A stretch of DNA of 64,000 nucleotides from Microcella daejeonensis (GTDB lineage: Bacteria > Actinomycetota > Actinomycetes > Actinomycetales > Microbacteriaceae): NCBI RefSeq assembly GCF_026625045.1, contig NZ_CP113089.1, forward strand, positions 1,922,001-1,986,000, written 5' to 3'. Below the pieces are notes generated by a model. That model worked only from the letters and a program-made list of their open reading frames with translations. It searched no databases and was not told the origin of the DNA. Numbering within the stretch: the stretch's first letter is position 1; every line of letters begins with the position of its first letter. Made by a program: the position numbers and the translations under genes. Of the stretch, positions 23,059 to 35,037 are shown piece after piece.

Positions 23059-23365
23059 ATGCCCGCCCGCCGATTGCGCATGATGTCGCGCATGTCGACC
23101 GCCGTCTCCGCCATCACCGACCGGGTCCGCGAGCGGGTGCGAGCCGAGCGGCTCGATCTGCGGCGCGACCCGGAGGGAGCGGAGCGCCTCATCCGCGAAG
23201 AGCTGCGCCGCTACGCCGAGCGCTCGCTCTCCGGCATCCTGCCGCGCATCCCCGATGAGGCCGCCGCCTTCGGCCAGGTGCTCGCGGGCCTCACCGGCTA
23301 CGGCCCGCTGCAGCCCTACTTCGACGATCCGACGGTCGAGGAGATCTGGATCAACCGCCCCGACG
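23059..23365 (+). pseudogene. tadA: TadA/CpaF pilus ATPase, N-terminal fragment
   Basis: The first 102 codons of the Tad (Flp) pilus assembly ATPase. Visible are the N-terminal helical domain (DRVRERVRAERLDL, LIREELRRYAERSL) and the start of the conserved GYGPLQPYFDDPTVEEIWIN region. Translation then enters the inserted element and stops at 23430 after unrelated residues. The remainder of the gene resumes at 34084. Joining 23364 to 34084 gives NRPD-AIFIARAG in one frame, matching the family's EEIWxN-x-FVARxG pattern, for a full protein of about 408-419 residues. ATGs at 23059, 23083 or 23092 are possible starts. Confidence 0.92.
23360..23365. other. attL core of the integrated element
   Basis: The 6-bp CCGACG at the left junction, identical to that at 34079-34084. 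Left of it the sequence codes for TadA; right of it TadA coding is lost. Confidence 0.8.
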
Positions 23366-23439
23366 GCTCAGTAGCAATTGTAGATGTTGGTAGCCGTGGG
23401 GCTGTGGAGATCCGCTCTTCCGTCACCTAATCTCACAAC

Positions 23440-23883
23440 GTGACTCAGACGCCACCCATCCCGCCCGGTTGGTATCCCGAGAGCGGGTCGCTGCGATGGT
23501 GGGACGGCACAGCATGGACTGACCAGCGTGCGCCGCTCACCGGCCCGCCTCCTGCCCCCGCTCCCCGTCGAGGGTTCGGAGCGGGCATCGGGTGCCTGGT
23601 GCTCCTGGGCCTCGTTCTAGTCCCGTTCTTCATCTGGCAGGCCATGGGCAGCCCTGGCGGCACTCCAGGCGCGCACGAGACCTGCATCGAGGAGATCAGT
23701 CAGGCCTGGGAAGGTCGATTCGACAACCCCATCATCGTCAGCGAAACCGAGACCGCCATCGCCTGGGATGTACAGGGCCGATTCGATGGTGGAACGTTCG
23801 CGTGTGGATTCAGCAAGAACCCTCTGACGCTGGAGCAGGCCATCGTCTTCCCCGGCGACGATGCTGTGGTCGTGGTGCCCTAG
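23440..23883 (+). CDS. DUF2510 domain membrane protein
   Basis: A 147-aa protein. Residues 5-28 are a DUF2510 motif (PPGWYPESGSLRWWDGTAWT), a Pro-rich linker follows, then one membrane helix (GCLVLLGLVLVPFFIWQAMG), and an extracellular domain with two cysteines. DUF2510 proteins are common in actinomycetes, usually as N-terminal cytoplasmic tags of membrane proteins of unknown role. GTG 23440 is the start. It is the first gene at the left end of the island. Confidence 0.82.
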   Translation: MTQTPPIPPGWYPESGSLRWWDGTAWTDQRAPLTGPPPAPAPRRGFGAGIGCLVLLGLVLVPFFIWQAMGSPGGTPGAHETCIEEISQAWEGRFDNPIIVSETETAIAWDVQGRFDGGTFACGFSKNPLTLEQAIVFPGDDAVVVVP

Positions 23884-23980
23884 GGCCGCAGGTGCTCTTC
23901 GGCACCCACGGTGGTGCTCGGATGTCCCCTTGCTCGCGTACCGTGGGGGTCTCGGCCGGAGTGAGGAACGATGACGCTCT

Positions 23981-24277
23981 GTGGCTGACTGGCACCCCGT
24001 CCTTGCCGCCGTGGAGCACGAACCCGGCCACTGGATCCTGACCGCTCAGACCGGCCCCTACGCCGTCGTGGAGATCATCCGCAATTGCAATGAGACCGGG
24101 TACCGAGCATCCACCTACGTCGAGCCGCGCCGGGTCGTCGGATACCGGCTCACGCTCAAGTCAGCCTGCGAGATCGCGCACCGCGCGTGGATCCGCAGAC
24201 ACGGTCCCGACCCCGGTGAGAACCAGTACCCCCAGCACCTCCGGCAGCACTGCCCGCCCGCCGCAGGCGAGAGTTGA
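23981..24277 (+). CDS. Island copy of the tRNA-Leu-adjacent orphan protein
   Basis: A 98-aa protein of unknown function starting at GTG 23981. It is nearly collinear with the chromosomal 15589-15915 product: WHPVLAAVEHEPGHWILTAQ, GYRASTYVEPRRVVGYRLTL, SACEIAHRAW. The C-termini differ, which marks the true limit of the conserved unit (about 82 residues ending near PGENQYP). Presence on both an island and the chromosome suggests a small family that moves with elements or regulates them; this is inference. Confidence 0.75.
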   Translation: MADWHPVLAAVEHEPGHWILTAQTGPYAVVEIIRNCNETGYRASTYVEPRRVVGYRLTLKSACEIAHRAWIRRHGPDPGENQYPQHLRQHCPPAAGES

Positions 24278-24416
24278 TGCTGTTGCGGTGGGTCAGGCCC
24301 ACACCGTCACGAGATCGACGGCGCAAGATGAAACTACGGAGTAGCGCCACTCATGCTGAGTCACGCGTTGACCGCCAACGCGTCCGAGGACGCTGACCAC
24401 GTGTCAGAGTTGGGAC

Positions 24417-24956
24417 ATGTTCAAGCGTTGGCGCAACCAAAGGCCTCCAGTACCCAGAGACTTCATCGAGTACGCCACGCGACCGTGGCTGGTGATCGTT
24501 TACGCAGGGTTTGTTTCTTTCGTGATAGCCGACCTCGTGGCTGCATATGAGGGATTGGCCTTTTCCGGCTTTCTTGGTCTATGGGCGACACTATGGGCAC
24601 TCGTTTTGGCAGCCTTGATCTTCGTCATCAACGCAGGCGAGCAACGCCAGTTGAGGGAGGAGATCGTAGGTCTGCAGGGCTCCATGAGCGAGATGGTGGA
24701 GAGCCTGCTCACGAAGCAGTCAGAAGCGCAGCTCGCTGCAGCCAAGGACGACTACAGGGACTACCTCGATGAACTGCTGCGCATGTTCCCTGCCATTCCC
24801 GAGAGCGACATAGTGACGGTCGAACGGCTACCAGGCAAGGGCAACCTGCCGGTCATCATCGAGACCAAGCTGCGACGGTACAGCGTCTGGCGTGGGGGTC
24901 GGAATGGCGGCTTCCACATCACAAAGCTGAGCGACCCCAACGGTCAGGCCGTGTGA
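24417..24956 (+). CDS. Two-helix membrane protein with coiled coil
   Basis: A 179-aa protein of no recognised family. Two membrane helices occupy about residues 24-42 (WLVIVYAGFVSFVIADLVAA) and 51-71 (FLGLWATLWALVLAALIFVI). A cytoplasmic coiled coil follows (GEQRQLREEIVGLQGSMSEM), then a small soluble domain ending in a beta-like stretch (IIETKLRRYSVWRGG). It lies next to the defence-like cluster and could be a membrane-associated sensor or effector, but nothing shows this directly. Confidence 0.7.
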   Translation: MFKRWRNQRPPVPRDFIEYATRPWLVIVYAGFVSFVIADLVAAYEGLAFSGFLGLWATLWALVLAALIFVINAGEQRQLREEIVGLQGSMSEMVESLLTKQSEAQLAAAKDDYRDYLDELLRMFPAIPESDIVTVERLPGKGNLPVIIETKLRRYSVWRGGRNGGFHITKLSDPNGQAV

Positions 24957-24970
24957 ACCCAATCAAGGGC

Positions 24971-25744
24971 TCAATCCGAGTCGTCGATAGTCGAGTGGTC
25001 ACCCTCCGCGAGAACGTCTTCCGCGGCCATGACTAGAAGTTCCGCGACGATCCAGGTTCCCGGCGGCAACACGCCGCCCGAGATCGTTCGCGTGAGTCTC
25101 CGCCCCCAAGCAAACAGCTCCTTTTCCCAAAGATCTTTCAGTAGAGAGTCGAGTGACCTCTGGGCCTGCCGGTACTGGGAAAGACCGTCGAGGTCCTGAG
25201 ATATCTCACCCCAACTCTGCGCACTTTCAAGGAAGGCGTCCGCAGCGTCGATCCGGTCGTCCGTATGGTCTTCCGCAAGCGGAATCAAGTTGTAGGCCTG
25301 GACGTTCCGAACTAAGCCGAACGCCTGCGCCCCGGAACGAATCGAGTCAAAAGGTATCGAGTCCTCGTCGGCATCTCTTTCGATCTTGATTGGCTGCGGA
25401 ACGGGGTCGTCATCGATCCGTGACTCGGACCACCTCTCGTGCTCCAGCTTCATCGAGCGGAGTTTCTCCACTGTATAAACATCGGGCTGTTCGTCCACGC
25501 GTTTATGGTCCTCGGGGCAAAGCAGAATCAAGTTGGCGTACGCGTCGATCGCTTTGCGGCTACCTAAGTCACCACGAGGACCAGCAAGAGCACGCGCGAT
25601 GATGTGTGCTTCCTCGCCGAGAACGAGGCCTGGCAATCCCGGTGACTCTGCATCTCCTGTCAGGGGACGTTTGCAAAGCGCGCATCGATTGTGGGAGCGA
25701 CCCCAAAGCAGTTTTCGGTCCCTCTGCGAGATCGCCACTTGCAC
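24971..25744 (-). CDS. HNH endonuclease domain protein
   Basis: A 257-aa protein. The N-terminal half is an HNH nuclease with zinc ligands: CALC (Cys21, Cys24), EEAHIIARA (His47), YANLILLCPEDH (Asn71, Cys76, His80). These fit the HNH catalytic triad His-Asn-His. The C-terminal half (about residues 125-257) is helical and unassigned, possibly a sensor or partner-binding domain. The start is GTG 25744 (a second GTG six bases later is possible). It is divergent from the phosphoribosyltransferase gene across 198 bp and may form part of the same defence cluster. Confidence 0.82.
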   Translation of the reverse strand: MQVAISQRDRKLLWGRSHNRCALCKRPLTGDAESPGLPGLVLGEEAHIIARALAGPRGDLGSRKAIDAYANLILLCPEDHKRVDEQPDVYTVEKLRSMKLEHERWSESRIDDDPVPQPIKIERDADEDSIPFDSIRSGAQAFGLVRNVQAYNLIPLAEDHTDDRIDAADAFLESAQSWGEISQDLDGLSQYRQAQRSLDSLLKDLWEKELFAWGRRLTRTISGGVLPPGTWIVAELLVMAAEDVLAEGDHSTIDDSD

Positions 25745-25942
25745 TCTCCATCAAGTTGGGATTTGGGCTTCGAGTGTCCTCCGACCACGAGGCCGTGAAC
25801 CAGTGCTGCCAAGAGTCTGCACCAGCCGATCTAGAGACCTTCATCGCACCGGTGCGAGTCCGCGTATCTTCCGACCCTGGGTTCAAGCGCATGGGTGGCG
25901 GTGAAACGCGCCTTCTTGGATTGTCCGGACTACGCTTGAGTA

Positions 25943-26695
25943 GTGCATGAGCTCCCCTCGCAGCCAATCTCTTTCGTAGATGGCGACGAGCTTGCTCAGA
26001 TGATTCTGCCTCCGATCCCGGATCACGTTGTGTGCCGATGGTGCCGAGGTCTGCTCGCGGGCAACGTTGATTCTTGCTTCAACTGTGTGGAGAACGCAGC
26101 GGCCCTCGATGGGGTCTTACAGCCGGTAGTCCCGATCTCGCTGTATTCCAAACCCAGCGCTCTTCGAGACTGGCTGACCTTTTACAAGGACGATGGCGAC
26201 ACTCTCGCCGACCCTGCAGCAGGTCGCGCTGTCAGTCGCATCGTAGGCTCGTTTTTCGCCTCCAGCAGCGACTGGTTGAGAGATCTTGAAATCGACGGAT
26301 GCATGGTGGTGCCTTCAACCATCCGTAAGCCTCCCCATCCGCTCGCCGTACTTTTGGAAGCGACCGGAGTTGTCAACTATCCGACTTTGGGCGGGTTGCG
26401 TCGCACTACAAGTGCGCTAGGCCACAACCGTCCGAACCGTTTGGCGTTCGAGGCCGACGGGGATCTGGCAGAGCGCAGCGTCTTGCTGATAGATGATGTC
26501 TACACATCGGGCGCGCGAGCGCAGAGTGCTGCATTTGCTCTGAGGAGTGTCGGTGCCAACGTCGCTGCGCTTGTCGTAGTGGGTCGTCGCTACAACCCGA
26601 ACTACAGCCGGGATAGTCAGACAGTATTCGAGCGTCAGAGATCCGTTGCGTTTGACTGGACCGCTGCTGCCCGACTCGATTTCAGGCGAACATAA
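25943..26695 (+). CDS. ComF-like phosphoribosyltransferase with zinc ribbon
   Basis: A 250-aa protein. The N-terminus has a two-pair cysteine knuckle (CRWCRGLL and SCFNC, about residues 31-50), and the C-terminal half is a type I phosphoribosyltransferase with the PRPP loop VLLIDDVYTSGARAQSAAFA. The layout resembles ComF/ComFC proteins of DNA uptake, but there is no competence context. It converges on and overlaps the SIR2 gene by 14 nt. Phosphoribosyltransferases recur in anti-phage loci, so a role in nucleotide-based signalling or toxicity is plausible. GTG 25943 is the start; an overlapping ATG at 25947 is in a frame that closes quickly. Confidence 0.82.
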   Translation: MHELPSQPISFVDGDELAQMILPPIPDHVVCRWCRGLLAGNVDSCFNCVENAAALDGVLQPVVPISLYSKPSALRDWLTFYKDDGDTLADPAAGRAVSRIVGSFFASSSDWLRDLEIDGCMVVPSTIRKPPHPLAVLLEATGVVNYPTLGGLRRTTSALGHNRPNRLAFEADGDLAERSVLLIDDVYTSGARAQSAAFALRSVGANVAALVVVGRRYNPNYSRDSQTVFERQRSVAFDWTAAARLDFRRT

Positions 26696-28097
26696 GGCGA
26701 CCGACCATCTCAACAGCAGATTTGGTCACAGACTCCGCGTCCCCTACCCGCAATTGATTCCACAGTTCGAGGTCATGCGCTTCAATGCCGTCCTGGTCAA
26801 GGATCTCCTGCCAGAGTTGCTCCGCAGCACCCCCAGTCGCCGCAACCGGGATGATCTGCACGCCATGGGCTCGGGCCTCCCTGGCTTCTTCCGCAGTACG
26901 TCTGCCTCCGCCCACAATGAGCATCGCCCGCACTTGTTGGAACACGCTCGTTCGCATTTCGGCAAGGTCTTGCTCGGTGAAGACGGCCATTCCGACCCGG
27001 TGTTCGATGGGTAGCGATTCGTCGTCAGTCACAGCTTTTCGGTAGTAGAACCGGATGCTTTCTGGGCTGTAGTCGCTGGGACCTAATGCGTCCCGGAGCG
27101 CCCGACCGACAGCAAGGGCCGACGGACCACCAAATGAGGCAACAGCGAGTTCGTGGTCGCGCACGAGTTGAGCAAGGGTCTGTCCGACGCCGCTGGCGAC
27201 CGATGCGGCAAACTCGGATGCTTCTCGATCCGCCGCATCGAAGCTTCCCGCGATGAACAATCGAGGTTCTCTACACCGGACTTCGAGCCGCGCGAGAAGT
27301 GGCGTCATGGCGTCGAACGAATCAATCATGATGACTGTCACTCCAGAGGCTTCTAGATCCCGCACGCGCAAGTCTTGTAGTCGAGCATCCAACTCTCCAG
27401 CTTCCCTCTTCAACACTACGTAGTGCGTAGGAGCCTTGGCGTTTTCGGGCAACGAGCGGGTTAGTTGGAGCAAGATGTTCAAGTTCGGATCATCAAAGCT
27501 CAGACCCAAAAACAGGAAGCTGTTCGTCAACCACTCTGCTCGCAGTCGAGCCCATGTGATTGGGTGGCGCTCTTCGTACCACTCGTAGTCGGTTCGAGTC
27601 AGCACTGGTTTAGATGACCAAGTTCGTGATCTTGGCTCTCCTTCCAAAGAGCCGTGCATCTTCGTGAGCCGTCGAGCTGCCGTCGTCCTCAAGCCACGTT
27701 GATAGTCGCTCTCGCTTACGAGGACCCTCAGGGGGAGTTTGGTGGCCGAGAGAGCATCTTCCATAAGGGTGTCGTAGTTCGTTGTCCAGAAGTCCCGTAC
27801 CGCCAAGGCTGCGAGGTGGAAGTGCGAGGCTGTTGGCGTGGCATCGGTATCCAGTCGATTTCGTACGTGCTCATCGAGTTCGTTGCGACCCCGCTCCTGC
27901 ACCACGTACTCGGCAGCGAGAGGTCCATCTGACACGGCATCCGGGACCTGAGCAACCTCCCTGATGTCCTTGATCAGCGATTTCCAGTCGTCCAGCCCAG
28001 CGGCGACGGAGAGGCCTGCGCCGACGAATACAGACGCTTCGCCTAGGCGAACGGCCTCGGCGAAAGCGGCAATGAGCGTGTTCGCGTCGGTGGCCAC
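26682..28097 (-). CDS. SIR2-SLOG (STALD) protein, ThsA-like NADase
   Basis: A 471-aa protein with the layout of Thoeris effector ThsA: an N-terminal SIR2 domain (about 1-285) and a C-terminal SLOG/STALD ligand-sensing domain (about 300-471). SIR2 signatures: SVFVGAGLSVAAG, WTTNYDTLMEDA with Asn107, KMHGSL with His148, and FLFLGLSFDDPNL. Asn107 and His148 correspond closely to the catalytic Asn112 and His152 known in Bacillus ThsA, so NAD hydrolysis is likely. The SLOG part has RLFIAGSFDA, ASFGGPSALAVG, MLIVGGGRRTAEE and IIPVAATGGAAEQLW. The start is GTG 28097, 4 nt after the stop of the primase-like gene; the longer frame overlaps that gene. No TIR (ThsB) gene is adjacent. Confidence 0.88.
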   Translation of the reverse strand: MATDANTLIAAFAEAVRLGEASVFVGAGLSVAAGLDDWKSLIKDIREVAQVPDAVSDGPLAAEYVVQERGRNELDEHVRNRLDTDATPTASHFHLAALAVRDFWTTNYDTLMEDALSATKLPLRVLVSESDYQRGLRTTAARRLTKMHGSLEGEPRSRTWSSKPVLTRTDYEWYEERHPITWARLRAEWLTNSFLFLGLSFDDPNLNILLQLTRSLPENAKAPTHYVVLKREAGELDARLQDLRVRDLEASGVTVIMIDSFDAMTPLLARLEVRCREPRLFIAGSFDAADREASEFAASVASGVGQTLAQLVRDHELAVASFGGPSALAVGRALRDALGPSDYSPESIRFYYRKAVTDDESLPIEHRVGMAVFTEQDLAEMRTSVFQQVRAMLIVGGGRRTAEEAREARAHGVQIIPVAATGGAAEQLWQEILDQDGIEAHDLELWNQLRVGDAESVTKSAVEMVGRLMFA

Positions 28098-28101
28098 GGA
28101 C

Positions 28102-28815
28102 CTAGGGTACGCGGGCCGTGAAGCGCGGTACTTGCCCGCGCTCGTTGGGCGAGATGCGCAGCGCTCCCTCTCCTTGGCGGAGCTGATGTGCGATCCACCG
28201 CTCATCGACAATCGGCGTAAGCAAGAGAGCTCGCGCCCAGAAATTCGTCTGCTCCGCGCGTTCCATCAGTTGCGAACCATAGAAGTGGAACGAACGACCA
28301 GATGCCGCCAGGAAGCCCGGCGCACCTAGTACCCGAGCTGCCGACGCAACCGTTGAAGCGGAACCCCTGAGGTCCGACTTGGAGGTGAAGTCGAGCATGG
28401 GGATGAATCGCTCTTCACCGGTGGGCAACTCAACCCTGGACGTAAGAGCAAGTACATCGCGACCTTCCACCTTCTCAGCCAGGGCGATGAGGTCGTCTGG
28501 CGTGTGTGGTCCCACTTCCAGGGTCGTCACGTCTCCATCGGCAGGGTCCTGGTGGTACATCGCGGATCGAAGGATGTCATCCGGAACCCCCGATTCGGCC
28601 TGCTCTCCTGCCAAAAAAAGTGCATGCCAAAACGGCATCCCCGTGAAGGTTCGAAGGGTGCGCGCTTCAGCGATCAAGGCTTCGCTCGCCTCTGCGCCCT
28701 CTACTCGACGTTGAACCCGGGGGGCGGCTTGCAGGTGGCTCACCTTGACCTTGCTGCCCGCCGGAACCCCGCTCAAGATGTTGTTGATCAAGTCCCGAAT
28801 CTCGTTGGACATCAC
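28102..28815 (-). CDS. Primase-like (Prim-Pol 1D-like) protein, tentative
   Basis: A 237-aa protein directly upstream of, and almost touching, the SIR2-SLOG gene, so the two are one operon. The C-terminal half has RFIPMLDFTSKSD, then SGRSFHFYGSQLM, then DERWIAHQLRQGEGALRIS. This order (acidic strand, S-x-H strand, Arg-x-Ser strand) resembles the remnant catalytic motifs of archaeo-eukaryotic primase folds, and I recall 'primase 1D-like' proteins of this size with such motifs; the assignment is not secure. The N-terminal 90 residues are helical. It may sense nucleic acid or make a nucleotide signal for the SIR2-SLOG protein. Confidence 0.5.
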   Translation of the reverse strand: MMSNEIRDLINNILSGVPAGSKVKVSHLQAAPRVQRRVEGAEASEALIAEARTLRTFTGMPFWHALFLAGEQAESGVPDDILRSAMYHQDPADGDVTTLEVGPHTPDDLIALAEKVEGRDVLALTSRVELPTGEERFIPMLDFTSKSDLRGSASTVASAARVLGAPGFLAASGRSFHFYGSQLMERAEQTNFWARALLLTPIVDERWIAHQLRQGEGALRISPNERGQVPRFTARVP

Positions 28816-28883
28816 TCACCCCCGTCTCCAATGTGCAACGAAATCACTGTAGAGCCGAGCAGGGACATTCGAGCCAGGACGCC

Positions 28884-29813
28884 TCAGCGCGCCAAGGAGT
28901 TAGCTACCGCGTAAGCGCTTGACTTTTCCAGTCGCGCGCGTGCGCGGTCGTATCGTCTCGTTGTGCGTGGATCTGCGTGGCCAAGGCTGTCTTGCAGATC
29001 CGCCAAAGGAACTCCAGCTTCAAGGGCCAACGTGGCGTGGGTGTGTCGCATGCTGTGCGGTGTCACCTTCCCCTCCAGGCCAGCGGCGCGTGCGATGCGC
29101 TGTACGGCGCGAAACGCTTCACTTTGTGCCCAGCGACTTCCCGAGCGCGTCGTGAACAGCGGTCGATCCTGGGTGTCCGCCCCTGCTTGGACGACCGCAA
29201 GGCCTAACGCTTGCTGGGCACCAACAAGTGGCGCGAACGCATCCACAACCTGCGGGGCTAGGACTACTTTCTGTCTTCTGCCACCTTTCCTGCTGATGAC
29301 GAGAACACGATGGCCCGCATCATGCTGAAGGTCGCTGAGGTTGGCTTTCAAGGCTTCCGAAAGTCTCACCCCGCTGATGAGGAGCAGGGCCAAGAGTGCC
29401 CCTGACCTTGGGCTGTCCTCCCTTGCGCTAACAAGCATGACCTTCGCTTCTTCGAGCGTCAGGCCACGGGTCGCACTGTGATCGGGATCGACTCTCGGGC
29501 GGCGAACATGCGCGACGGGATTCGAGCTGACGACATCTTCCGAGAGCAGGTAGGCGTAGAAGGAAGCAACAGCCGAGATGCGGCGGGCGATGGTTGTTGG
29601 TGCCCCGACAAGCGTCTGAACCCAAAGGTCGATGTGGCGGCGCTGAGCCTCAAGCGCATCAAAGTTGGCCGAGTCGAAGAGAGTGAAGAGCCCCTGCAGG
29701 TCGCGACTGTAAGCGCGCCGAGTGTTCTCGTTCCTCAGTGACATCAGCCAGGCACCGGCCAGCGCGCCGTGTCTGCCCTCATTCGAATCGGAGAACGACA
29801 GCGATAGCCTCAT
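28884..29813 (-). CDS. Tyrosine recombinase (Xer/phage integrase family)
   Basis: A 309-aa tyrosine recombinase. The N-terminal SAM-like domain binds core DNA (NENTRRAYSRDLQGLFTLF), and the C-terminal catalytic domain keeps all expected residues: Arg in ISGVRLSEAL, Lys in ISRKGGRRQK, HSMRHTHATL (HxxR), LGHADPRTTRRYDRA (His and nucleophile Tyr). Length and lack of an arm-binding domain fit Xer-like simple recombinases. ATG 29813 is preferred since the longer frame would be encoded by the dif-like palindrome that lies 4 nt upstream. It is the second recombinase on this island. Confidence 0.92.
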   Translation of the reverse strand: MRLSLSFSDSNEGRHGALAGAWLMSLRNENTRRAYSRDLQGLFTLFDSANFDALEAQRRHIDLWVQTLVGAPTTIARRISAVASFYAYLLSEDVVSSNPVAHVRRPRVDPDHSATRGLTLEEAKVMLVSAREDSPRSGALLALLLISGVRLSEALKANLSDLQHDAGHRVLVISRKGGRRQKVVLAPQVVDAFAPLVGAQQALGLAVVQAGADTQDRPLFTTRSGSRWAQSEAFRAVQRIARAAGLEGKVTPHSMRHTHATLALEAGVPLADLQDSLGHADPRTTRRYDRARARLEKSSAYAVANSLAR

Positions 29814-29816
29814 TTC

Positions 29817-29842
29817 CACATGATAACAGACATTATCGTGTG
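29817..29842. other. dif-like recombination site candidate
   Basis: Two 10-bp arms, CACATGATAA and TTATCGTGTG, are inverted repeats of each other with one mismatch and flank a 6-bp centre CAGACA. Two inverted binding arms ending in GATAA/TTATC around a 6-bp spacer is the layout of Xer dif and other simple tyrosine recombinase sites. It sits 4 nt upstream of the tyrosine recombinase start codon. Confidence 0.6.
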
Positions 29843-29864
29843 TGTTTTGGTCCGGCAGGATCAC

Positions 29865-29908
29865 GAGGTCCGCGACCTAAGGCGTGCCCACCCAGGGTCG
29901 CGGACCTC
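29865..29908. repeat. 13-bp perfect inverted repeat
   Basis: Arms GAGGTCCGCGACC and GGTCGCGGACCTC separated by 18 bp, in the gap between the recombinase promoter region and the next gene. A terminator for the minus-strand genes upstream or a protein-binding site are the plausible readings. The perfect symmetry and GC content favour a stable RNA hairpin. Confidence 0.7.
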
Positions 29909-30010
29909 CTGCTCGGCTCGACGCCATCTCACTGACCGTCGGCCTCGCAGCTCAGGACTACTGCCGCATCGCAGCAGCCCTGAGAGTCGAAAGGGAGATG
30001 CGCAAGGTGT

Positions 30011-30268
30011 TCACCCGGGAAGGCCCCTCGGATGCACGGTGGTCTCTCCGAAGTACCGGCTGCAAACCAGGCTCGCCAGCGGCTCGGGGATGTCGAACGC
30101 CTCGCCCGCGCCAGTAAGGGCGTGAACCCTGCCGTCGGGGGTCAGGGCATACGCCACGCGCTCGCCCTGGATGTGAGCTACACGGGAGCGAGGGGGGATC
30201 TCGAAACGGTGTCGTCCCACTTGCACTGGAATCATGCTCTGGAAATGTCCATTGATGCGAAGACCCAT
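30011..30268 (-). CDS. Small hypothetical island protein
   Basis: An 85-aa protein with no family I recognise. It is beta-rich in pattern (MIPVQVGRHRFEIPP, VAYALTPDGRVHAL). It starts 5 bp after the stop of the 30274-30765 gene and is therefore the third gene of a tight operon (31064 to 30011). Confidence 0.6.
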   Translation of the reverse strand: MGLRINGHFQSMIPVQVGRHRFEIPPRSRVAHIQGERVAYALTPDGRVHALTGAGEAFDIPEPLASLVCSRYFGETTVHPRGLPG

Positions 30269-30273
30269 GGTCT

Positions 30274-30765
30274 TCAGCTCTCACGGTGAAGCGTCATGGA
30301 TCTCGTCACCAAGCGGCCCTGGGAGGACATTCGAGAGCGCTGATCAGCGATTTGAACTTCATTGCTCGTGCCTGCGCCCAGAGTGCGCGAGGTGGGCAAC
30401 GCGGCACCGTAGGTAGCCTCGACCTGACGGAGAGCAGCAGCACGTCGCACCGGGTTGGGCTCCGCCCACGCGACCTTCCGGTCTCGTTCCCGCGCTTCAG
30501 CCTCCTCGACGCTGCCCGCAGTCCAGGTCGGACCGCCCGGCCACGCACCCTTCTGCAGCCGCCCATCCGGCCTGCTGAGCTCGCGGTCAAGGAAGCTCGA
30601 CCCGTCGCGATCCAAGGTCCCTTCGATCATCGCGGCGGTGAGAGTGATCTCCTGCCCACGCACAAGTACTCCACCGAACGCGGTGAGGCCGCTCTGGACG
30701 CAGTGGACGACATCGCCTTCCGCTGCCATGCCCAGTGGCGTTTCAACCTTGTGTGCGGTCATCAC
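30274..30765 (-). CDS. Hypothetical island protein
   Basis: A 163-aa protein of unknown function; the second codon is also Met. Residues 1-60 form a likely beta domain (VVHCVQSGLTAFGGVLVRGQ), followed by a charged helix rich in Ala, Glu and Arg (VEEAEARERDRKVAWAE). Its start overlaps the stop of the upstream gene by 4 nt. Layout and size recall accessory genes of phage-like elements, but no structural family is evident. Confidence 0.62.
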   Translation of the reverse strand: MMTAHKVETPLGMAAEGDVVHCVQSGLTAFGGVLVRGQEITLTAAMIEGTLDRDGSSFLDRELSRPDGRLQKGAWPGGPTWTAGSVEEAEARERDRKVAWAEPNPVRRAAALRQVEATYGAALPTSRTLGAGTSNEVQIADQRSRMSSQGRLVTRSMTLHRES

Positions 30766-31064
30766 TTCATTCCCTTCTGAGCGGTGTGGATCTTCGAGAT
30801 CCGGTCCCGACTAAGAGCGGTGGCGCGCATGAGCGCGGCGACCGGGATCCCTGCGTCGCGTGCTGAGGAGATCAGTTCGTCGCGGACTTGACGCTCGGAC
30901 TCGTACTGCGCCTGGGCGTCTTGTGTCGCGGCCACCTGCTCGCGGAGGGATTCGACGGCCATGACCGCCGAGAAGGTCAGCTTTTCCTGGAGCGGGCCTG
31001 CAGCCTGCGGGCTACGAGGAAATGGATTGCAGTCAATTGCGCTCATGCTTGTGATATCGGCCAT
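30762..31064 (-). CDS. Small helix-turn-helix-like protein
   Basis: A 100-aa protein. Residues 40-70 form a coiled coil (VAATQDAQAQYESERQVRD) and the C-terminus reads as a helix-turn-helix (ISSARDAGIPVAALMRATAL then SRDRISKIH). A DNA-binding role, such as regulator or directionality factor for the island, is plausible. First gene of the three-gene unit. Confidence 0.62.
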   Translation of the reverse strand: MADITSMSAIDCNPFPRSPQAAGPLQEKLTFSAVMAVESLREQVAATQDAQAQYESERQVRDELISSARDAGIPVAALMRATALSRDRISKIHTAQKGMK

Positions 31065-31119
31065 CGGAGTTCCCGGTGCGGGATCGTTGTAGTGCGCAAG
31101 ATTCGGCGCGACTGACGCG

Positions 31120-32004
31120 CTAGAGATCCGCTCCCTCCAGAAGACGATCCAGCTCCGCCGAAGTGGGCGTAGAGGAGACCGAGGGATCGATGAGGCCGGT
31201 CAGCACGTCATCGATGCCGATGGGATCTGGGTCAGGGATGTGCCAGCCGCCATTGCTCAGCCGGACGACGCCCATGCCAGCGAACATCTCGGTGATCTCG
31301 TCGTAGATCAGCTGCTTAGACTCGTTTTCGGAAAGCAGTCCCACGTCGATGGGAGGTGCATTCATGCCGGGCTCAGGGGTGGGCTCAGGCTCATCGGCCA
31401 GGAAGGCGTCGATCCAGTCCTCCTCGGGCTGCCGGGTTCCTTCCACGGGATCGATGGAATCCAGCAGGGCCTTGTCGGCAGCCTCAGCTGCGGAAACGGA
31501 TGCCGCTGCAGCGGCTCTGCGGAGCCGGGAGACCGTGCTGAGTGAGACGCCCAGGGAGGTGGCCTGCTGCGCGATGCTGAGGTCTTCCAGGCCCTCCAGG
31601 GAGTGCGTGGTGCGGCGCTTGCTCTTGCTGCCGCCTTTGGCTGCTCGCACGTAGATCAGCGGGTTGTAGTTCTCCAGAGCCCAGGTCGCGGCTTCCAGTG
31701 CCTTGTGCTCGATGTCCTCGACCGAGGTGCGCCACTTGCTCTTCGTGTCGTCCATGACCGCCTCAGCCTTCGGGAAGGTGATCCCCTCCAGCCAGATGGC
31801 GAGGTCTTCGATGGTGGGGAACGGCAGCCCAGCCTTCTCGTAAGCCCGGAGCTTGCGGAGAGCGTTCCGGCCCATCCAGCGAATCAGGTTGGTGCTGAAA
31901 TCGCGATATTGCTCTGGGTCATTCATTTCCACGGAATAGGTCCACGGGGGGAGCCTGCGGTGGTACCGAGGAGTTGGGAATGGGTACAGCTTGGGGGAGT
32001 CCAT
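31120..32004 (-). CDS. HTH protein next to iterons, possible replication or control protein
   Basis: A 294-aa protein I cannot assign to a family. The middle (about residues 138-160) carries a clear helix-turn-helix (SIAQQATSLGVSLSTVSRLR), preceded by a basic linker (GGSKSKRRTTHS). The C-terminal half is acidic. The N-terminal 100 residues are aromatic-rich. It is transcribed away from a 567-bp gene-free segment that contains iteron-like repeats and a palindrome directly before its start. That arrangement resembles replication initiators or copy-control proteins of plasmid-like elements; this is inference. Confidence 0.6.
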   Translation of the reverse strand: MDSPKLYPFPTPRYHRRLPPWTYSVEMNDPEQYRDFSTNLIRWMGRNALRKLRAYEKAGLPFPTIEDLAIWLEGITFPKAEAVMDDTKSKWRTSVEDIEHKALEAATWALENYNPLIYVRAAKGGSKSKRRTTHSLEGLEDLSIAQQATSLGVSLSTVSRLRRAAAAASVSAAEAADKALLDSIDPVEGTRQPEEDWIDAFLADEPEPTPEPGMNAPPIDVGLLSENESKQLIYDEITEMFAGMGVVRLSNGGWHIPDPDPIGIDDVLTGLIDPSVSSTPTSAELDRLLEGADL

Positions 32005-32019
32005 GTGAGCTTCTATCCT

Positions 32020-32052
32020 GCGAGATAGCTTTTGCTATCCGGGATGTCTCGC
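32020..32052. promoter_or_regulatory. Palindrome upstream of the HTH gene
   Basis: GATAGC-TTTT-GCTATC (32024-32039) nested inside GCGAGA (32020-32025) and TCTCGC (32047-32052), 16-48 nt before the HTH gene start. A likely operator or leader hairpin for that gene. Confidence 0.5.
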
Positions 32053-32286
32053 ATCGCTTCCCGGAGCAATTATTGCTTCAACGGGAGCTACGGGACTCGT
32101 GCTCATTGTGCTGCTTGCAGACTCATAGCCATTGGTTTGGATGTCGCTGTGTTGGGTCAACTCTGCCGCATCCGCGCGGGCTGCACAAGCCGCAACAGTT
32201 GCGATCCGGTCCGGGGCTCAGCAGCTGCCGCTGGCGAGGCTCAGGGCTGGACCCCGGCAGTTCTTCACATCCTTCCGATGGAAGGA

Positions 32287-32397
32287 TAGTTATCTGGCAG
32301 AGCCTGCAGCCCTAGTTATCTGACGGATGTTGCAGTCCAGCAGCACTAGTCATTTGACAGAGGTCGGCTGCGTGATCCGCCTAGTTATCTGACAGAG
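32287..32397. repeat. Iteron-like direct repeats
   Basis: Four 16-bp repeats near TAGTTATCTGACAGAG at 32287, 32313, 32347 and 32382 (spacing 26, 34, 35 bp), with 0-3 changes from that consensus. A looser copy TAGATTATCCGACGAG lies at 32483. Same orientation and near-helical spacing suggest protein binding. Confidence 0.7.
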
Positions 32398-32571
32398 GCC
32401 AGGGCGCAAGGATGCCCCCGCCTCATTGGCTTGCTTAGGGCCGAGACGGGGGCGAGGAGGATTAGAAGCTCTTCCCATCAATTAGATTATCCGACGAGCT
32501 GGAATCAATCTAGATCGCAATTGACGCATTATGGAAAGCAATTGCCACTAACGCATCTGCATTCCTGCTGA

Positions 32572-34059
32572 CTACGCGGCTTCGTCGTTGAGGGACGTGA
32601 CAACGGTGTGGGTGACGAAGTACTTCTGCAGCCCTCTACCGGGCAGGACGCGAATGTCCAGCAGCTTCGCCACCAGCATCCGGCGCTGCTCGATGTGGAG
32701 GGCGTCGAAGCGCTCGGCGAGCTGCTGACGAGCCGTCACGGCATCGTCCAGGCTCACCCGTCCCGGCGTGAAGATTCGGCGGTGGAGATCCAGCAGCATG
32801 TGGGCTGAGGCGTTGCTCTGACGAGCCTCCTCCAGCTGCTCCTCGATCTGCTCCCGACGCTCCTTGAGCTGCACCAGGCGCTCCCTCTTCACAGCAGCAG
32901 TGATGAGGTCGGCGTCGAAATCGTCGTACACGTCCTGCACGTCCGCCTGCACTCGCTGGAGCTTGGTGAGCATCGCATCCACGTCCATGCCCTCATGGCG
33001 GGGCATCAGCAGATCACCGCCGAAGAGAAAGGCTGCGATGACCTCCTTGTGGACGAGGGCCTCCAGATCCATCAGGTGGGCGCTGGCGTGACGCTCACCC
33101 TTTTTGGCGGCGGCACAGCGGAGGATCTTCACCCGCGTGCCTCGGCGGCTGTCGGTGGCTGTGTTGGAGCGCATCGAAGATCCGCAGACCCCGCACCGGG
33201 CGTGACCGCTGGAGAGGTGGACCGGCTGGAAGCCCGGCGCGGTGCCCTTGCGGGTCGCCAATACTTGCTGGACCGTGTGCCACAGCTCGGGCTCCACGAT
33301 GGCCTCCCACTTGCCGATGGGCTCCCCGTCTGGATCTACCAGGCCAGCGTTCCGGGGGCGCTTGAGGATGTTGTTCAGGTGCGCATACTGCCAGCGAGCG
33401 CCTCCCTTCCGCTGGGGGACTCCCTTCTCGTTCCACTCACGCACGATGCTGCCCACGGTGCGCCCGTCGGCCACCAGCAAGTAGGCCTCCTTGATGAGGT
33501 CTGCCTCCCACGGCACGAGCTTGGAGCGGTCCTCGTCGTCGTAGCCGAAGGTGCCCTTGGGGGCCTGGTACTCGCCCTTCTCGCGCTTGAGCTTCACGGC
33601 ATTGCGGACGGCCTCTGACTTCATTGCCGACTGGTACTGAGAGACGGCCTGCGCCATCTGGAACTGCAGACCGCCTGACGCGCTGGAGACATCGGTCAAC
33701 TCGCCGGAGAAGCCCATGATGGGGATCCCGCTGTCGGCCAGCGCCATGCGGATGGAGGAGTTGTCGGCATCGTTGCGGCCAAGCCGGTCGGCAGCACGGG
33801 CGATGACGTAATCCACGTCCTTGCGGATGATGTACCCCATGAGGGCGTTGAAGGCCGCGCGCTCCTTGCCGCTGTAGCCGGAGATGCCGTCATCCACCAG
33901 CTCTTCGATGATGGTGATTCCCTTGGCCTTCGCTAACTCTGCCGCTGCTGCCAGCTGTGCCTGGATTGAGTTAGAGGCCTCAGCGGCCTGCTCCTCCCTG
34001 GTCTTCTTGCCCTTGGAGAAATCGTCCTTGGACACTCGCGCGTACAACACTGCTCTCAT
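32572..34059 (-). CDS. Large serine recombinase (integrase)
   Basis: A 495-aa large serine recombinase, responsible for site-specific integration of the island. The N-terminal resolvase domain begins MRAVLYARVS with nucleophile Ser10 and continues with IARAADRLGRNDAD. The recombinase domain and a zinc ribbon (HARCGVCGSSMRSN, then LRCAAAKKG) follow, and a coiled coil (ERREQIEEQLEEARQ) lies before the C-terminus. The start codon at 34059 is 20 bp from the right attachment core, the usual position. It stands back to back with a GTG that opens the remaining tadA frame. Confidence 0.96.
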   Translation of the reverse strand: MRAVLYARVSKDDFSKGKKTREEQAAEASNSIQAQLAAAAELAKAKGITIIEELVDDGISGYSGKERAAFNALMGYIIRKDVDYVIARAADRLGRNDADNSSIRMALADSGIPIMGFSGELTDVSSASGGLQFQMAQAVSQYQSAMKSEAVRNAVKLKREKGEYQAPKGTFGYDDEDRSKLVPWEADLIKEAYLLVADGRTVGSIVREWNEKGVPQRKGGARWQYAHLNNILKRPRNAGLVDPDGEPIGKWEAIVEPELWHTVQQVLATRKGTAPGFQPVHLSSGHARCGVCGSSMRSNTATDSRRGTRVKILRCAAAKKGERHASAHLMDLEALVHKEVIAAFLFGGDLLMPRHEGMDVDAMLTKLQRVQADVQDVYDDFDADLITAAVKRERLVQLKERREQIEEQLEEARQSNASAHMLLDLHRRIFTPGRVSLDDAVTARQQLAERFDALHIEQRRMLVAKLLDIRVLPGRGLQKYFVTHTVVTSLNDEAA

Positions 34060-35037
34060 GTGGGAAATAGTAAAGCAGCCGACGCGATCTTCATCGCCCG
34101 CGCGGGCATCAGCGAGCAGCTGCCCCTGCGTCTCAGCGACGACGAGGTGCGCACGCTCGTCGAGCGCATGCTGCAGGCCACCGGCCGCCGCGTCGATCTC
34201 TCGAGCCCCTTCGTCGATGCCTCCCTGCCCGACGGCTCGCGCCTGCACGTCGTCATCCCCGACGTCACCCGCAGTCACTGGGCAGTCAACGTGCGCAAGT
34301 TCTCGCAGCGCATCCGCTCGCTCGACCGCCTGGTCGAGCTCGGCTCGATGACCCCGCCCGCGGCGGCCTTCCTCCGGCGCGCCGTGCTCGCGGGCTGCAA
34401 CATCCTCGTCTCGGGCGCCACGCAGTCGGGCAAGACGACGATGCTGGGCTCGCTGCTCGCGAGCGCCCGGCCCGAGGAGCGGGTCGTCACCGTCGAGGAG
34501 ACCTTCGAGCTCGACCTCACGGCCGTCGACTGCGTCGCGATGCAGTGCCGCAGCCCCAACCTCGAGGGCACCGGCGAGATCAGCCTGCGCCGCCTCATCA
34601 AGGAGGCGCTGCGGATGCGCCCCGACCGCCTCATCGTCGGCGAGGTGCGCGAGGCCGAGTCCCTCGACCTCCTCATCGCCCTCAACAGCGGACTGCCGGG
34701 CATGTGCTCCCTCCACGCCAACAGCGCGCGGGATGCCCTCACCAAGCTCTCGACCCTGCCCCTGCTCGCCGGGCGCAACATCGACGCCTCGTTCGTCGTA
34801 CCGACGGTGGCGAGCGCGATCGACCTCGTCGTGCACTGCGAGCTCGTGGCCGGAGGGCGACGCCGCGTCGCCGAGATCATCGCGCCGACGGGCCGGCACG
34901 CCGAGGGCGTCGTCGAGGCCGACACCCTGTTCCGGCTCGTCGACGGGCGCCTCACCGCGACCGGCTCCCTCCCGCGCCGCACCGAGAAGTTCGCCGCCGC
35001 CGCGCTCGAGCCGCACGGTGAGGGGGCGGCGGCATGA
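34060..35037 (+). pseudogene. tadA: TadA/CpaF pilus ATPase, C-terminal fragment
   Basis: The larger part of TadA: VERMLQATGRRVDLSSPFVD, LPDGSRLHVVIPDVTRSHWA, Walker A SGATQSGKTTMLGSL, the Asp box VTVEETFELDL, LRMRPDRLIVGEVREAESLD (Walker B) and the His-box CSLHANSARDAL. The catalytic core is intact, but the N-terminal domain is on the far side of the island. A GTG at 34060, contributed by the island, opens this frame, so a truncated ATPase could still be made. It overlaps tadB by 4 nt (ATGA), so coupling to the pilus operon is kept. Confidence 0.93.
34079..34084. other. attR core of the integrated element
   Basis: CCGACG at the right junction, identical to the left copy at 23360-23365. Immediately to the right the TadA frame resumes at the residue expected after the left fragment. 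Confidence 0.8.

Follow-up and report, generated by a model that had tools for sequence, protein, structure and literature searches.

Does a ThsA-like effector that stands without a TIR gene still work as part of Thoeris, or does it answer to other partners? The question is raised by a stretch of 64,000 nucleotides from Microcella daejeonensis (NZ_CP113089.1, positions 1,922,001 to 1,986,000; hereafter the window, to which all coordinates refer), in which a mobile element carries the gene for a SIR2-SLOG protein (26682..28097, - strand; 471 aa, GTG start at 28097), a putative NADase effector. This protein had been described in an initial annotation as ThsA-like with Asn107 and His148 as catalytic residues, and the description is borne out, the strand now being stated as well: both residues (codons at 27777..27779 and 27654..27656, - strand), the former corresponding to Asn112 of Bacillus ThsA (BcThsA) in the alignment, are invariant in all 25 aligned sequences including the window's. 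PADLOC assigns the protein to ThsA (1.1e-65), and a feature of Thoeris type I, the SIR2-SLOG effector with its catalytic Asn and His intact, is present. From these residues and the predicted fold, we infer that killing is the task of the SIR2 domain, through NAD+ hydrolysis. On the evidence below, we give a probability of about 0.55 to the reading that the protein belongs to a mobile SIR2-SLOG NADase system that is independent of TIR proteins and distinct from Thoeris.

The absence of a TIR gene, which had been claimed for the island, extends to the whole genome. A TIR profile built from the ThsB that adjoins the gene of locus L019 (Pfam ThsB_TIR 3.4e-28) has no match in the 64-kb window, and neither TIR_2 nor ThsB_TIR has a match in the organism's own genome (2,720,089 bases in one contig, 99.98% complete). 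With one genome scanned for each species, 493 related loci were recorded, and the 80 best of these serve here as relatives. Searched within 3.5 kb of the effector gene, the TIR profile matches none of the 13 other loci of the window's clade (L001-L011, L013 and L083; flanking sequence is shorter than this on one or both sides in L006, L007 and L013), whereas it matches 62 of the 67 distant ThsA loci (L014-L080), with L073 (E 0.0014) and L078 (within an open reading frame (ORF) of 1186 aa) being unusual among the matches counted. Over all 81 stretches (L001-L080 and L083), less than 3.5 kb is available on at least one side in 27. The distant loci lacking a match are L021, L024, L045, L066 and L075, and four of these five stretches are limited by contig ends; L021 and L024, both from Bacteroidales and closely related to each other, are ThsA loci of the canonical clade, each limited on one side. 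The initial annotation had named a TIR protein close by in homologous loci as an observation that would refute its reading; such a protein is met in most of the distant loci and in none of the clade.

Phylogeny also separates the effector from canonical ThsA. In the whole-protein tree, 23 clade rows together with a Loktanella protein (L012) split from 67 distant rows with an SH-aLRT of 100. A tree of the SLOG domain alone (about residues 277-471; 26685..27269, - strand; structure 7uxs matches residues 278-470) places these 24 rows apart from 36 canonical rows, a random draw from the 67 after L018 was set aside, with support of 100/100. Both trees are unrooted, and L011 and L012 sit on long branches. 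Firm grouping of the SLOG domain within canonical ThsA, which by the initial annotation would likewise have refuted its reading, is not what the trees show, the domain falling outside that clade. The 23 clade rows comprise 14 loci and nine proteins from a protein search, of which P0029 is nearly identical to L010.

The 14 loci counted as the near group are L001-L011, L013, L083 and the window; L081 and L082 duplicate loci already included (the window and L010) and are uncounted, and L012 is excluded here and from the 23 rows used for the ligand pocket because it has no phosphoribosyltransferase (PRTase), AEP or DprA gene. A PRTase is encoded in all 14 loci. An AEP primase-like protein and a DprA/ShosA-like protein are each encoded in 11, with no AEP-like gene found in L008, L009 and L011 and no DprA gene found in the window, L010 and L013. 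None of the three occurs in the available stretches of the 67 distant loci. Both partners proposed in the initial annotation are therefore members of the set, the PRTase as a constant one and the primase-like protein as a frequent one only. The near group occurs in several families of Actinomycetota, among them Microbacteriaceae, Nocardiaceae, Streptomycetaceae and Micromonosporaceae, and L083 lies on a Mycolicibacterium plasmid.

In the window, the AEP-like gene (28102..28815, - strand) ends only 4 nt before the SIR2-SLOG start, and the two are therefore read as an operon. Its product is assigned to the AEP (RepB' primase) fold on the basis of a second look at the model with VIA-align, the Pfam model PF24387 and conserved motifs; a Foldseek search with the model gave no match at E <= 0.001. 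Asp134, Ser167-x-His169 and Asp196 are invariant in 14 of 14 family members. The PRTase gene (25943..26695, + strand), of ComFC/ShosT-like type, is convergent to the effector gene and overlaps its 3' end by 14 nt, a tail-to-tail arrangement that recurs in L002, L010 and L013. Judged by its sequence, the N-terminal 4-Cys motif of this PRTase is a zinc-finger motif of the ComFC type. PADLOC matches it to ShosT at 3.6e-5, confined to residues 173-221, and the PRTase of L001 at 2.6e-9. The DprA-like protein of L001 is of the DprA/SLOG kind (PADLOC ShosA 1.6e-57, PF02481 1.3e-55, LDcluster4 4.3e-9); a clade DprA profile has no match anywhere in the 64-kb window.

The ligand pocket of the SLOG domain differs from that of canonical ThsA. 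Arg371, Lys388 and Glu403 of BcThsA hold 3' cyclic ADP-ribose (3'cADPR), according to an excerpt of PMC10022894. At these positions the 67 distant rows have Arg in 67, Lys in 61 and Glu in 66; among the 23 clade rows Arg is found in 18, Glu in all 23 and Lys in none, the Lys388 position being gapped throughout. The window protein has Arg382 and Glu404 in place of Arg371 and Glu403, and the stretch between them (26886..26954, - strand), when aligned with BcThsA, carries GGGRRT instead of the Lys388 loop. Throughout the clade this loop has become a short, tight glycine-rich turn (GGGRRTAEE in the window), which we take to be similar to that of LOG phosphoribohydrolases. Because the Glu and mostly the Arg are kept and the Lys388 loop is swapped, the SLOG domain likely reads a different nucleotide; its pocket probably still is shaped for a nucleotide, to judge from the alignment, but for one other than cADPR. 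The earlier proposal that the SLOG signal does not come from a TIR protein gains indirect support from the loss of this loop in the clade.

Known relatives of the PRTase, DprA and AEP-like proteins bind single-stranded DNA (ssDNA), phosphoribosyl pyrophosphate (PRPP) or nucleoside triphosphates (NTPs). The set might sense phage replication intermediates, either as ssDNA or as a shift in the dNTP or PRPP pool, and this sensing would then alter the nucleotide ligand of the SLOG domain, upon which the SIR2 protein would assemble as ThsA does, destroy NAD+ and stop the infected cell. If one partner is to be named for activation, the PRTase is the strongest candidate because it alone is found in all 14 loci. 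The AEP-like protein may act as a regulator that restrains the effector, this being its most likely role because elsewhere the gene of a PF24387 protein comes immediately after that of a dGTPase, in the position held in Clover by CloB, an inhibitory nucleotide synthase. A bolder and less probable idea is that the SLOG domain reads a nucleotide signal of non-TIR origin, either a phosphoribosylated nucleotide written by the PRTase or a short pppNpN dinucleotide made by the primase-like protein, and that PF24387 is a portable nucleotide-signal module controlling both SIR2 NADases and dGTPases. If this is true, the same NADase is driven by PRPP or primer chemistry in place of cADPR chemistry.

A Loktanella locus that falls with the clade in the trees bears on the matter of PRPP. 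At L012:180-2309 the SIR2-SLOG gene is directly followed by a HisG gene (PF01634), a second HisG being encoded elsewhere in the genome, and no TIR gene is found in the 4.7 kb of this contig-end-limited locus. HisG being another PRPP enzyme, this single case is suggestive. Further HisG-linked cases were sought at E <= 1e-25 in 385 genomes from the class to which G794 belongs. Apart from the Loktanella locus, the search gave only G1056, where locus L115 is a canonical one with a ThsB_TIR gene (1.5e-23).

Several observations weigh against the reading that we favor. Neither the AEP-like nor the DprA gene can be essential to the set, given that each is not found in three of the 14 loci. Besides an SxH motif and the Asp of motif III, AEP enzymes have two acidic residues in motif I, the second of which is absent in all 14 members of the AEP-like family, and with a single Asp in this motif it is uncertain that the protein synthesizes nucleotides. 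The Arg371 position is occupied by Val or Leu in 5 of the 23 clade rows, and the HisG link is seen in one locus only. The parallel with Clover is one of place and not of descent because CloB is a Pol-beta enzyme rather than an AEP. Moreover, loss of Lys388 could mean altered basal control, because R371, K388 and E403 mutants of BcThsA are constitutively active in plants, again as excerpted from PMC10022894. Finally, TIR genes do occur elsewhere in some clade genomes.

This last point bears on whether the protein might be an ordinary Thoeris effector with its TIR partner elsewhere in the genome, for which its assignment to ThsA by PADLOC also speaks. Among 13 clade genomes, several of them drafts (the window's own and 12 belonging to L001-L011 and L013; those of L083 and L012 lie outside this search), ThsB_TIR is encoded somewhere in four and TIR_2 in seven, but five, including the window's, have neither, so that a TIR protein encoded in trans was rejected as the general partner. 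With its SLOG domain outside the canonical clade and without the Lys388 loop, the protein is very improbable as an effector of this ordinary kind. Equally far-fetched is a role outside defense, as a stress or housekeeping NAD enzyme that happens to lie on a mobile element; the element does bear unrelated genes, and a part in defense is presumed, but the system is spread patchily, with the AEP-like gene in 1 of 396 genomes of the phylum and 2 of 398 of the family (the window's own included in both), and is found on a mobile island and on a plasmid (L083) in the company of relatives of several known defense proteins.

Signaling may also dispense with a diffusible ligand. It is possible, if rather doubtful, that an ssDNA-sensing complex of the PRTase, DprA and AEP-like proteins docks directly on the SLOG domain, by SLOG-SLOG contact in the case of DprA, and so switches SIR2 on. 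The DprA/SLOG nature of the L001 protein, the overlapping or closely spaced genes, and the ComFC relatives that bind ssDNA or interact with DprA all fit such contact, but the window, L010 and L013 lack DprA, and retention of the pocket Glu in every clade row points to a bound small ligand. The ShosA and ShosT matches raise the further idea of a ShosTA-like toxin-antitoxin pair, with the PRTase as toxin, the antitoxin role falling to DprA or, for the window, to the SLOG domain of the SIR2 protein, and the SIR2 part as a second toxin; an excerpt of PMC9122126 gives DprA homologues as the antitoxins in shosTA, syrTA and rqlHI. We regard this as unlikely, since the invariant SIR2 catalytic residues would be needless for an antitoxin, and since in the window, L002, L010 and L013 the PRTase gene runs convergent to the SIR2 gene instead of sharing its operon. 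The TIR-independent NADase system thus stays our preferred reading. Of the suggestion that the locus may be a distinct defense system, the distinctness stands, the partner set, clade and pocket all differing from those of Thoeris, and the defensive role is presumed.

To judge from shared lengths of the longest contig, the AEP-like and SIR2-SLOG proteins are indicated as co-occurring in 21 of 51 AEP-like cases, the window included (separate searches, compared by eye); among the nine proteins added by the protein search, an AEP-like neighbor is not indicated for P0024, P0025 and P0028. In viral contigs, none of the 19 pattern matches to the AEP-like alignment was confirmed as a relative, and the SIR2-SLOG alignment gave 16 loci at 24-31% identity, similar to the distant ThsA loci. 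Phage records contain no AEP-like match. Plasmid records yield two at E <= 1e-3 (L083 and L084) and 38 more at E <= 10, those listed being at E 0.3 or weaker and nearly all annotated as plasmid replication proteins, which are taken as chance matches or distant AEP kin. A Pantoea AEP-like protein used as query retrieved only itself.

The element itself, of about 10.7 kb (23366..34084), splits a gene for a TadA/CpaF-like (T2SSE) ATPase, as comparison with L086, L087 and L088 shows; the break lies at 23365/34079, and an identical 6-bp core is found at 23360-23365 and 34079-34084. The right-hand part of the split gene matches T2SSE (1.1e-41), and the left-hand part, 123 aa without a Pfam match, is joined to it through the relatives. 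A large serine recombinase (32572..34083, - strand), its true start probably slightly inside the ORF, occupies the right edge, and a XerC-like tyrosine recombinase outside the conserved set (28884..29864, - strand) lies directly upstream of the AEP-like gene. Also on the element is a separate defense candidate, an HNH-type protein (24971-25744, - strand) which over about its first 110 residues resembles both PADLOC PDC-M68A (1.4e-23) and SAVED-HNH effector models in their N-terminal part. Two further island proteins are without a convincing Pfam match, one of 179 aa with membrane-like stretches by eye (24417-24956, + strand) and one of 294 aa with a weak helix-turn-helix match (31120-32004, - strand).

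A SIR2-SLOG protein, as a putative NADase, with a non-TIR partner set is a variant of a known effector type. Calling systems from the effector only would mislabel the clade as orphan Thoeris, because PADLOC reports ThsA and the partners differ. The clade makes it testable whether SIR2-SLOG effectors run on signals other than TIR products; it would also link DprA, ComFC and primase-like proteins to NAD+ depletion, and the PF24387 family may be a shared regulator of two nucleotide-pool effectors, the SIR2 NADase and the dGTPase. No paper describing the set of SIR2-SLOG, PRTase and AEP-like proteins was found among the titles and abstract openings listed, though Burroughs (2015), on nucleotide-centric systems, and Nicastro (2023), on nucleotide-targeting effectors, may describe it.

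Among known systems, KomBC (Kongming) differs in its partner proteins and in that KomC, at 264-278 aa, is too short for a SLOG domain. Like the window effector as read here, it is a SIR2 NADase associated with a non-TIR nucleotide, being solved with dITP according to the titles of 9v12, 9xvc and 8zsi. Clover (CloA dGTPase and CloB nucleotide synthase) resembles the window in that both effectors attack the nucleotide pool, Clover at dGTP and the window's presumably at NAD+, and in all three proteobacterial loci a PF24387 protein stands next to a dGTPase, where Clover has CloB. There the AEP-like gene is directly behind the dGTPase gene (L084:6262-8435, L113:3493-5438 and L114:5038-7013), the dGTPase of L084 being in two ORFs. 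Identity of the AEP-like protein with CloB was rejected, CloB having the Pol-beta [D/E]h[D/E] motif (excerpt of PMC12265719) rather than an AEP fold, and neither a CloA dGTPase nor a Pol-beta CloB is among the 10 island proteins scanned. ComFC of competence systems shares with the window PRTase the 4-Cys zinc finger and a PRPP loop of the DD-x-x-T-[TS]-G kind, but the PRTase here adjoins a SIR2-SLOG gene rather than competence genes. The ShosTA or DprA-PRTase system of P2-like phages, as excerpted from PMC9122126, clusters a PRTase with a DprA/ShosA-like protein, as do 11 of the 14 clade loci; here a SIR2-SLOG and usually an AEP-like protein are added, the PRTase has the ComFC-type 4-Cys motif, and the window is without DprA. 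Thoeris type I (ThsA SIR2-SLOG with ThsB TIR) shares its effector domains with the window protein, which nevertheless differs in having no TIR partner found, in belonging to another clade with the Lys388 loop replaced, and in having as neighbors a PRTase, an AEP-like protein and, in its relatives, DprA.
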